This document shows, in pieces, positions 24,626 through 26,695 of a DNA stretch of 30,305 bases. This DNA is from a virus. Each line of letters starts with the position of its first letter. The first letter of the stretch is position 1. Below the pieces are notes generated by a model. The model saw only the letters and a list, made by a program, of their open reading frames with translations. It was not told the origin of the DNA and ran no database searches. Position numbers and translations under genes: made by a program. The stretch spans positions 1 through 30,305 of the IMG/VR virus record IMGVR_UViG_3300030333_003826; one strand, 5' to 3'.

Positions 24626-25810
24626 TTATACTAATATCCCATGCAATTCTGGTGTTTTGGTCATATAAGGATTTAACACATTAATAGAAGAAATGGCATT
24701 AACTGTTGTTGTTTCTTCCATTGCAACTTTCTTTTCTTTTGGAGGTATTCTTATTGGAGGTAAATCCATTTCAATTAAATTTATTCCTGGTTTTTGAGAA
24801 AGTGATGCAACCAATTCCTTAGGAATTACTGCTTCACCACGTTCAAGAATTGCAGGAATTTCATTCGTAGCACCACCTACAATTCCACCATCATGAAACA
24901 TTGGTGCTCTAAATGTACCACCACCACTAGTCTTTTCTAAATTTTTTTCTGCTTCTTTCTTTGCTTTCTGTTGGAAATTATCTTTATCTTTATAAGATTG
25001 TGAATAATCAAATTGATTTACTCGATCTAATGGTTTTTTACTCATTTCTCGATCAGTACCACCAATTTTATGTGCTAGCCATGTTGCACCTCCAATAAGT
25101 GCCAGTATTGCTAAAACTTTAGCACCACCAATCAATCCTACTAATGAAATTATACCACCAAGACCACCAAGAAGATTAAGACCAACTAATGCACCACCTA
25201 CTAATAATATCTTATCAAGGTTATTCATTGTCCAATCAAATATCTTTTTTATATTCGGCCATAATGCATTAATTGCAACACCAGCAGCAAGAAGTTTAGC
25301 AGCATTCAGAATACCTCCAAAACTAAGTCCCGTAGCTGCTTTTCCAACAGTACCTAATCCAGATCCTACACCCTTTCCAATTTTTTTTGTACTTTCTAAT
25401 GAACTTTCAGCACTGGATCTTCTATCGGCAGATGCCTGTGCTTTTAATGCTTTATTATCTTGCTTTTGTTCTGTAATTCTATTTGCAAAATCTAATGCTA
25501 AAGCACCACCAATATCTTGCATTACTGCATTAACTTCTGATAACTGTTGATTCATATTGAATACAGCACCAGATAGCATATCAATGCGTCTTCTTAAATC
25601 TATGTGCTCATCTATATTTTTTATATTTGTCTTAATTTGGAAAGTATCAATATTAAGTGAACTCTTTTTAGGTTTAGATATCCCTCCTCCCAGTGCATTT
25701 GCAATTGGTCCAGCAGAAATTTTTGGTATGGAAGATCCACTACCAAAAGGAGATTTGATATTACTTACATTTAATTTTGGTTTAGTTGTTAGACTATTGA
25801 TTAGTGCCAC
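24626..25810 (-). CDS. Tape-measure-like tail protein, 394 aa
   Basis: The start is a GTG at 25810, because an in-frame stop lies four codons upstream. Residues 60-145 are helical with coiled-coil character. Residues 200-247 are strongly hydrophobic (ILLVGGALVGLNLLGG and AKVLAILALIGGATWLAHK), as in tape measures. At 305-330 comes FHDGGIVGGATNEIPAILER then GEAVIPKE, a motif I associate with the C-terminal part of many tape-measure proteins. It follows the gp26 chaperone genes, as in other tailed phages. It overlaps the 59-residue gene by 17 bp. At 394 residues it is shorter than T4 gp29 (590), so it may act with the 250-residue neighbour. Assignment rests on motif and gene order. Confidence 0.7.
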   Translation of the reverse strand: MALINSLTTKPKLNVSNIKSPFGSGSSIPKISAGPIANALGGGISKPKKSSLNIDTFQIKTNIKNIDEHIDLRRRIDMLSGAVFNMNQQLSEVNAVMQDIGGALALDFANRITEQKQDNKALKAQASADRRSSAESSLESTKKIGKGVGSGLGTVGKAATGLSFGGILNAAKLLAAGVAINALWPNIKKIFDWTMNNLDKILLVGGALVGLNLLGGLGGIISLVGLIGGAKVLAILALIGGATWLAHKIGGTDREMSKKPLDRVNQFDYSQSYKDKDNFQQKAKKEAEKNLEKTSGGGTFRAPMFHDGGIVGGATNEIPAILERGEAVIPKELVASLSQKPGINLIEMDLPPIRIPPKEKKVAMEETTTVNAISSINVLNPYMTKTPELHGILV

Positions 25811-25973
25811 TTTGTTGTTTTAGGTTTTCTTCATCTATGTACTGTTTTAATAATGTCACATACACTTCCCTTTCCCAAGGGATCATATTTTCTATCTCTG
25901 TTAAAGAGTATTTATGGTGTTGAACCAAGGCAAAATTTACTTTATAGTATGACTCAAGATCAGTATGAGCCAT
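25794..25973 (-). CDS. 59-aa C-terminal chaperone-type ORF in the gp51 position, probably a -1 frameshift extension of gp26
   Basis: The minus-strand frame from ATG 25973 reads MAHTDLESYYKVNFALVQHH and continues KYSLTEIENMIPWEREVYVT with YIDEEN near the end; the stop is TAG. The core IPWEREVYVTLLKQYIDEEN is typical of the second part of tail assembly chaperones. T4 has gene 51 right after gene 26, so this is the equivalent position. The ATG lies two nucleotides after the gp26 stop, and only TAAG, spaced too closely, precedes it, so it lacks a convincing Shine-Dalgarno site. Its frame is -1 relative to gp26. It may be made as a gp26 fusion (238 + 3 + 59 = 300 residues), by termination-reinitiation, or by both routes. 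Confidence 0.75.
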   Translation of the reverse strand: MAHTDLESYYKVNFALVQHHKYSLTEIENMIPWEREVYVTLLKQYIDEENLKQQSGTNQ

Positions 25974-25988
25974 ACTTAGGTGAAAAAA
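25946..25988 (-). promoter_or_regulatory. Putative programmed -1 ribosomal frameshift site at the end of gene 26
   Basis: The heptamer T TTT TTC (25988 to 25982) is in the gp26 frame (AGT TTT TTC ACC TAA). After a 5-nt spacer (ACCTA), arm AGTATGGCTC (25976-25967) can pair with GAGTCATACT (25955-25946) as 10 bp including one G-U, with an 11-nt loop. A -1 slip continues into CAC CTA AGT and then the ATG of the 59-codon ORF. Heptamer, spacer and hairpin are read from the sequence; function is inferred. Confidence 0.7.
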
Positions 25989-26695
25989 CTTGCCAACCCT
26001 TCCAACACTACTTCAGATTCCACCTCAGTGATTGGATTTGTTACTTTAACTTTATGAGAAAGTTTAGGCATTGTCTCAAAGAATTTTTCAATTGCTTTGA
26101 ATTGTTTACTGTTCAATTGTTCTACAAATTCCTCCAATTCTTGTTTAGTTGAATCAGAAGCATCCCAACTCTCCTCTTCATCATAAACGATTTCAATACA
26201 TGAACTAATCATATTAAGAGATTTGTTCACTGCACTACCTTCATTAGTATCGAAATTATTTCCAATAAATTCATCGAGAGAAGGATATTTAAGTTTCATA
26301 GAATATTGATCATCAAGTTTGATAATGTTCTTATGTCCTCTAGTTTTTTGAACTTTAATACTATCAAGATTAATTTCCATTTGAACTGATGTTTTATTAT
26401 CATCAGGACAAACTATATTAACTTCAACAGTCTCACCAACTGATTTTGAACGAACATTCAAGAATAAGTATTCAATATCAAAAGTAGCAAGTTTAGTAAC
26501 ATCTACTCCTTTTGTTAAGATACATTCAGATAATATATCTACAACAGCATTTGATATATCTTCACTATTTTCAGTCTCCAATGCCATAATAAGAATCTTC
26601 TCTTCCCTTACGAGAAAGGGACGATATTTAATTTTCTTATTATTAGAAGGTAAAGTCAACTCATAAGTTGGAGTATTAATCTTTGGTAATGGCAT
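25976..26695 (-). CDS. 26: gp26-like baseplate hub assembly protein, 239 aa
   Basis: The protein starts MPLPKINTPTYELTLPSNNK and continues KIKYRPFLVREEKILIMALE, then SECILTKGVDVTKLATFDIE and FLNVRSKSVGE, VNIVCPDD. This is the conserved core I recognise in gp26 of marine T4-like phages, a family related to T4 gp26/gp51 and to tail assembly chaperones. T4 gp26 is 208 residues. It acts during assembly of the baseplate hub. The acidic segment around 165-190 (DEEESWDASDSTKQELEEF) precedes a helix. The last codons are Ala-Ser-Phe-Phe-Thr, followed by TAA. The Phe-Phe pair lies on the candidate slippery heptamer. A perfect TATAAATA lies 25 bp upstream. Confidence 0.85.
   Translation of the reverse strand: MPLPKINTPTYELTLPSNNKKIKYRPFLVREEKILIMALETENSEDISNAVVDILSECILTKGVDVTKLATFDIEYLFLNVRSKSVGETVEVNIVCPDDNKTSVQMEINLDSIKVQKTRGHKNIIKLDDQYSMKLKYPSLDEFIGNNFDTNEGSAVNKSLNMISSCIEIVYDEEESWDASDSTKQELEEFVEQLNSKQFKAIEKFFETMPKLSHKVKVTNPITEVESEVVLEGLASFFT

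Follow-up and report, generated by a model that had tools for sequence, protein, structure and literature searches.

A probable -1 programmed frameshift signal at the end of gene 26 in a marine T4-like phage genome and its relatives

The question raised by this locus is how a small ORF that begins immediately after gene 26, in a different frame, comes to be translated. The locus lies in a virus record of 30,305 bases, the whole of which was analyzed and is referred to here as the window. A preliminary description of this DNA had proposed that ribosomes slip back by one base at a heptamer near the end of gene 26 and so enter the frame of the 59-residue ORF before reaching the gp26 stop codon. 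All of the elements claimed for such a site are present on the minus strand (Table 1), and the claimed -1 relation of gp26 to the 59-residue ORF is borne out by frame analysis. On this strand gene 26 ends ...GGAAGGGTTGGCAAG TTTTTTC ACC TAA, with the heptamer three codons before the stop, and the ATG of the 59-codon ORF starts 2 nt past that stop (TAAGTATG). The predicted fusion would comprise gp26 residues 1-238, HLS, and the 59 residues, with the junction reading ..ASFF-HLSMAHTD... Among the 22 ORFs of at least 100 codons in the window (8,704 codons), in-frame T TTT TTC occurs as a single copy, the one at the gp26 end. It is very probable, from the comparisons presented below, that the end of gene 26 is a -1 programmed frameshift signal giving rise to a short and a long tail chaperone.

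Table 1. Features of the gp26-gp51 region, with positions numbered along the window.
Feature	Position	Strand	Description
gp26 ORF	25976..26695	minus	239 aa; short form of the tail assembly chaperone (TAC-N) and N-terminal part of the long form
Shine-Dalgarno-like stretch GGAAGGG	25997..26003	minus	upstream of the slip site
Slippery heptamer T TTT TTC	25982..25988	minus	read T_TTT_TTC in the 0 frame
Spacer, heptamer to hairpin	25981-25977	minus	5 nt
gp26 stop codon TAA	25976..25978	minus	read only by non-slipping ribosomes
Hairpin	25946..25976	minus	arms 25976-25967 and 25955-25946, 11-nt loop
59-codon ORF, gp51 family	25794..25973	minus	-1 frame; C-terminal part of the long form (TAC-C)
Predicted -1 frameshift product	25794..26695	minus	~300 aa, from frame analysis
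Candidate tape measure gene	24626..25810	minus	394 aa; overlaps the end of the 59-codon ORF

The identities of the two proteins are clear from profile searches. gp26 matches PF12322 (T4_baseplate; E 1.1e-72, 244.7 bits against a curated cut-off of 24.5) and phrog_150 (baseplate hub; E 6.4e-81), while the 59-aa protein matches phrog_634, the baseplate hub assembly catalyst or gp51 family, with E 3.3e-28 over 57 of its 59 residues. The latter also matches positions 239-278 (of 282) of phrog_150 with E 6.9e-07, and phrog_150 seems to have been built from an alignment that includes gp26 with a gp51-type extension. A structure model of gp26 (pLDDT 85) gave no significant PDB match with Foldseek. 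When residues 1-95 were aligned structurally with VIA-align, 3fgx ranked first among the Foldseek candidates at Z 8.1, followed by the HK97 tail assembly chaperone 2ob9 at 7.8 and YqbN 3klu at 7.1, with a drop to 5.3 and 4.3 thereafter; values of 7-8 are close to what common arrangements can give. Judging from the model, the N-terminal domain of gp26 appears to resemble the HK97 tail assembly chaperone. Among distant gp26 proteins, a Cys-x2-Cys zinc-ribbon-like motif (CPKCG) is found near the C-terminus (alignment A1, columns 280-300), and this motif has been lost in the marine clade that includes the window (gp26 C-terminus, 25976-26060).

The gene neighborhood is of the expected kind, as the preliminary description had suggested in pointing to a chaperone, a second-frame extension, and a tape-measure-like gene in succession. 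A tail tube protein gene (PF23849, 26737-27345) lies upstream of gp26, and the candidate tape measure gene follows directly after the chaperone genes, so that the pair sits between the two. The last of these genes is identified weakly, by tape-measure profile matches to the 394-aa protein in its C-terminal DGGIVGG..IPAILERGEAVIPKE stretch (phrog_23940, E 0.0086). Between 23869 and 25810 the window encodes successive proteins of 394 and 250 aa where P-SSM2 has proteins of 529 and 516 aa, and the shorter lengths may reflect a tail of reduced length or a tape measure that is divided differently.

To compare gene 26 ends, relatives were gathered by their gp26 protein, with the heptamer not used as a criterion, and dereplicated at 90% nucleotide identity to 74 sequences from Kyanoviridae, Schizotequatrovirus, Aeromonas and Cronobacter Straboviridae, and phages of Stenotrophomonas, Rhizobium, Agrobacterium, and Ochrobactrum; locus L040, in which gp26 stops early, and a few truncated loci were omitted from the counts. 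A scan for related loci that started from ValKK3 gp26 yielded only two. All 78 intact gp26 ends among the first 80 loci carry TTTTTTC, and T TTT TTN is present in 74/74 of the dereplicated relatives (TTTTTTC in 65, TTTTTTT in 8, and TTTTTTG in 1). The distance from the heptamer to the stop is variable in this set (-7, -10, -13, or -16) and the frame is constant, with the -1 ORF open from the heptamer or earlier through gp51 in all complete cases and conserved as a protein. At the longest distance, 16 nt, loci L122 and L124 encode a gp26 C-terminus of GFFGLA and have an intact -1 relation. A +1 frameshift was rejected, as it is the -1 frame and not the +1 frame that continues into the gp51 family in 14 divergent records. 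Given the range of families represented, common descent in the absence of selection is an implausible cause of the conservation seen in these alignments, bearing in mind that the sequences are related and therefore not independent trials. The conservation test proposed in the preliminary description thus found both the heptamer and the -1 relation kept in relatives, save three Ackermannviridae records. These records (L091, L094, and L095), from which T TTT TTY is absent, are the sole exceptions among the relatives examined. In each a gp51-like ORF in the -1 frame follows gp26 (L091 2540-2640, L094 2720-2830, and L095 2670-2780), and the junctions read CTTTTCAAGTAA, GGTTTTCATCTGA, and CTTTTTCGCTAA, respectively. 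A start codon is absent for 35 nt in one of them, phiMAM1 (L094), and with neither heptamer nor start codon this phage needs another slip site or mechanism.

Conservation of the heptamer could instead reflect a requirement of the protein for Phe-Phe at the end of gp26, with the frame relation being incidental. Neither Phe237 nor Phe238 varies in the alignment, and T4 gp26 likewise has Phe-Phe near its end, but the protein does not fix the codons. Among 344 control Phe-Phe pairs from ORFs of the same loci, TTC-TTT is the commonest spelling (144), followed by TTT-TTT (114) and TTC-TTC (54), and TTT-TTC is the rarest (32); 39 of the 344 (11%) are slippery and preceded by T, 14 as T-TTT-TTC and 25 as T-TTT-TTT. 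At the gp26 end the preceding codon may be Ser, Asn, Asp, Ala, Gly, or Thr, yet its final base is T in 74/74, and Rhizobium phage RHph_I34 replaces the second Phe with Leu yet retains a slippery T TTT TTG. These codon controls led us to reject a Phe-Phe constraint as the whole cause of the heptamer, an explanation that we find scarcely credible.

Another alternative to frameshifting is translational coupling, in which ribosomes would terminate at the TAA and restart at the ATG located 2 nt further on, producing a free 59-aa gp51 and no fusion. The arrangement in the window, with the ORF having its own ATG, makes separate translation possible, and the deposited annotations of several phages list gp51 as its own gene. 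An early ATG is also present in 48 of 71 complete relatives, with 12 having only another or later start and 11 having none within 13 codons, counting ATG, GTG, and TTG. The -1 ORF is nonetheless open and conserved in the 23 relatives that are missing the early ATG, and those without any usable start keep both the ORF and the heptamer. Moreover, the position of the initiator Met is merely hydrophobic in other lineages, being occupied by Leu, Phe, or Ile, and coupling leaves the invariant Phe-Phe codons unexplained. The ATG state changes at least seven times on the gp26 tree. The heptamer is found in 8/8 further isolate records, of which S-RIM2, S-MbCM100, ACG-2014d, S-H38, and Melnitz-1 lack a gp51 start over the initial 50 nt, S-CAM1 and P-HM1 have only a late one, and S-PRM1 has an ATG. 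Because the second ORF lacks a start codon in many relatives, frameshifting is required there, and in such phages the conserved gp51 domain can hardly be made, as far as these sequences indicate, except by -1 frameshifting. The start-less relatives led us to reject coupled reinitiation as a general mechanism, and it is very unlikely to account for this locus. Together with the conserved heptamer, they support the earlier frameshift reading in essence.

It is also conceivable that both routes operate in the marine clade, with the frameshift fusion accompanied by some free gp51 made through reinitiation at the ATG. The ATG is retained in 45 of 48 near relatives, but a start-site signal was not seen, and the three separate near relatives without an ATG represent three apparent nested losses within the clade of the window (L044, L053, and L059), which suggest that free gp51 is dispensable. 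We therefore regard a dual route as rather unlikely, and return to frameshifting and the elements that may stimulate it.

Upstream of the heptamer, pairing with the 16S anti-Shine-Dalgarno sequence was computed and averaged over relatives. Of ~600 positions at the gp26 end, the strongest mean pairing belongs to the 8-mer ending 7-9 nt before the heptamer, where the mean duplex energy is -8.1 kcal/mol in the near set and -5.4 kcal/mol in the far set. Most near relatives carry GGAGGG here, and the GGAAGGG of the window is among the weaker copies. Part of the GG is due to an invariant Gly. In the near set, the Glu codon within the stretch is GAG in 42/49 cases compared to 30% elsewhere in gp26, and the codon preceding it is a Leu codon ending in G in 30/49, compared to 23% of Leu codons elsewhere. 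The stretch lies ~23 nt from the gp51 ATG, too distant to serve as its ribosome binding site, which argues further against coupling, whereas its spacing from the heptamer suits a stimulatory role; the stimulator of E. coli dnaX has a similar spacing. As judged across the alignment, this element is more widely conserved than the hairpin downstream.

The hairpin in the window has exactly the geometry given in the preliminary description, including the spacer and loop lengths listed in Table 1, and its stem, AGTATGGCTC (25976-25967) paired with GAGTCATACT (25955-25946), comprises 10 bp with one G-U. The 45-nt stretch has an MFE of -14.7 kcal/mol and a z of -4.8 against dinucleotide shuffles, and equal stability was not reached by any sampled gp26 window of the same size. 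However, the structure is a feature of the marine clade rather than part of the conserved core. At least 9 of the 10 pairs are present in 36/74 relatives, restricted to the clade, and the mean z is -3.6 in the near set (92% below -1) compared to -1.1 in the far set. In the 3' arm, 36/37 Ser codons are TCA and 40/47 Tyr codons are TAC, compared to 30% and 17% elsewhere in gp26, a codon choice that suggests selection on the RNA. Covariation was not clearly above that of slid controls (11 both-side changes compared to 3-16). A role as a conserved core was accordingly not upheld, the hairpin being strong in the near set only and its covariation within the slid-control range, but it is likely, although not proven, that it acts as a clade-level stimulator in the marine clade of the window. 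The ATG of the 59-codon ORF falls within the 5' arm of the hairpin, a further point against coupling. A more elaborate possibility is that the marine clade has a three-way switch, in which the Shine-Dalgarno-like stretch and the hairpin would set the frameshift rate and the hairpin would hide the gp51 AUG, so that the free extension domain would come only from ribosomes that had opened the hairpin and the short, long, and free forms would be made in a fixed ratio. We consider this distinctly improbable.

The data are most consistent with a model in which most ribosomes end at the gp26 stop and yield the short chaperone, TAC-N, of 239 aa. We infer that some ribosomes, with both tRNA-Phe positioned on T_TTT_TTC, would slip one base back and bypass this stop, appending the gp51-type domain, TAC-C, to give a chaperone of ~300 aa, TAC-NC. 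The Shine-Dalgarno-like stretch, lying 7-9 nt upstream, would stimulate slipping, as would the 10-bp hairpin 5 nt downstream in this clade. By analogy to lambda gpG and gpGT, many short copies and few long ones may coat the tape measure protein, with the extension recruiting tail-tube subunits.

These results have implications for annotation. In the public records of many cultured cyanophages gp51 is missing, shortened, or entered as a free protein, and if what functions is a gp26–gp51 fusion, as the comparative evidence here indicates, this annotation should change. In the deposited S-CAM1, ACG-2014d, S-MbCM100, and S-PRM1 records (L130, L131, L132, and L133) there is a geneless gap of ~180 nt at gp51, and in S-RIM2, P-HM1, S-H38, C48C1, OC, and Melnitz-1, gp51 is listed in a form shortened to a late start. 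T4 gp51, known as the 'baseplate hub assembly catalyst', is likewise better read as a long tail assembly chaperone. In this picture, most of the T4-like phages tested fulfil by frameshifting a single function for which T4 uses two genes. Isolates that lack the start, S-RIM2 among them, are convenient test cases for frameshifting in cyanobacterial hosts.

A frameshift at this position is reportedly conserved in several groups of T4-like phages, with T4 said to use genes 26 and 51. The preliminary description had stated that such a signal is not generally described for T4-like gene 26, a view outdated by the work of Vladimirov, Gautam & Davidson (Virology 2022, 566:9-15), which reportedly identified these genes as the tail assembly chaperones of T4-like phages and is cited in PMC12846349 for poly-T -1 frameshift signals in T4-like TAC-N genes and in PMC10885494 for some T4-like phages carrying a short and a long gene instead. 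As represented in those citations, the T4-like gp26/gp51 chaperones share with the window the gene pair, the short and long forms, and the poly-T -1 sites, and this genome and most of its metagenomic relatives are new instances relative to that work. The present analysis itself arrived at the Shine-Dalgarno-like element, the hairpin of the clade, and the recurrent changes of start codon, which may also be covered by the 2022 paper. In 2016, T4 was still named as an exception to the tail-gene frameshift (PMC5009743). In a search with a profile of predicted fusions, T4 gp26 (6e-28) matched over the short part only, positions 11-242 of 302, ending at Phe-Phe, whereas T4 gp51 (2e-16) matched over positions 23-289, across the junction, as one in-frame protein. 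With gp26 matching the short part and gp51 spanning the junction, the short and the long form each have a gene of their own in T4; these two genes lie on opposite strands, so that a frameshift is unneeded, whereas in the window both forms would come from one message. T4 gp51 is required, yet absent from the final particle (PMC3004832).

Similar systems are known beyond the T4-like phages. In Vandenendeviridae and Andersonviridae, the tail assembly chaperone likewise has a -1 frameshift at the end of TAC-N with TAC-C annotated separately, although these are other phage families and, unlike the window, use a GTTTTT motif (PMC12846349). The analogy that the preliminary description had drawn to P2 E/E' and lambda G/GT also fits. 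P2 E/E' slips at T TTT TTG, the same type of site as in the window and exactly the heptamer of RHph_I34, and lambda slips at G GGA AAG, which differs from the T TTT TTC of the window. Lambda G/GT likewise pairs a short chaperone with a minor -1 extension, and the tape measure gene follows directly downstream (PMC5009743). Set against these systems, the gp26-gp51 junction of the window is a sound new instance of an already known mechanism.
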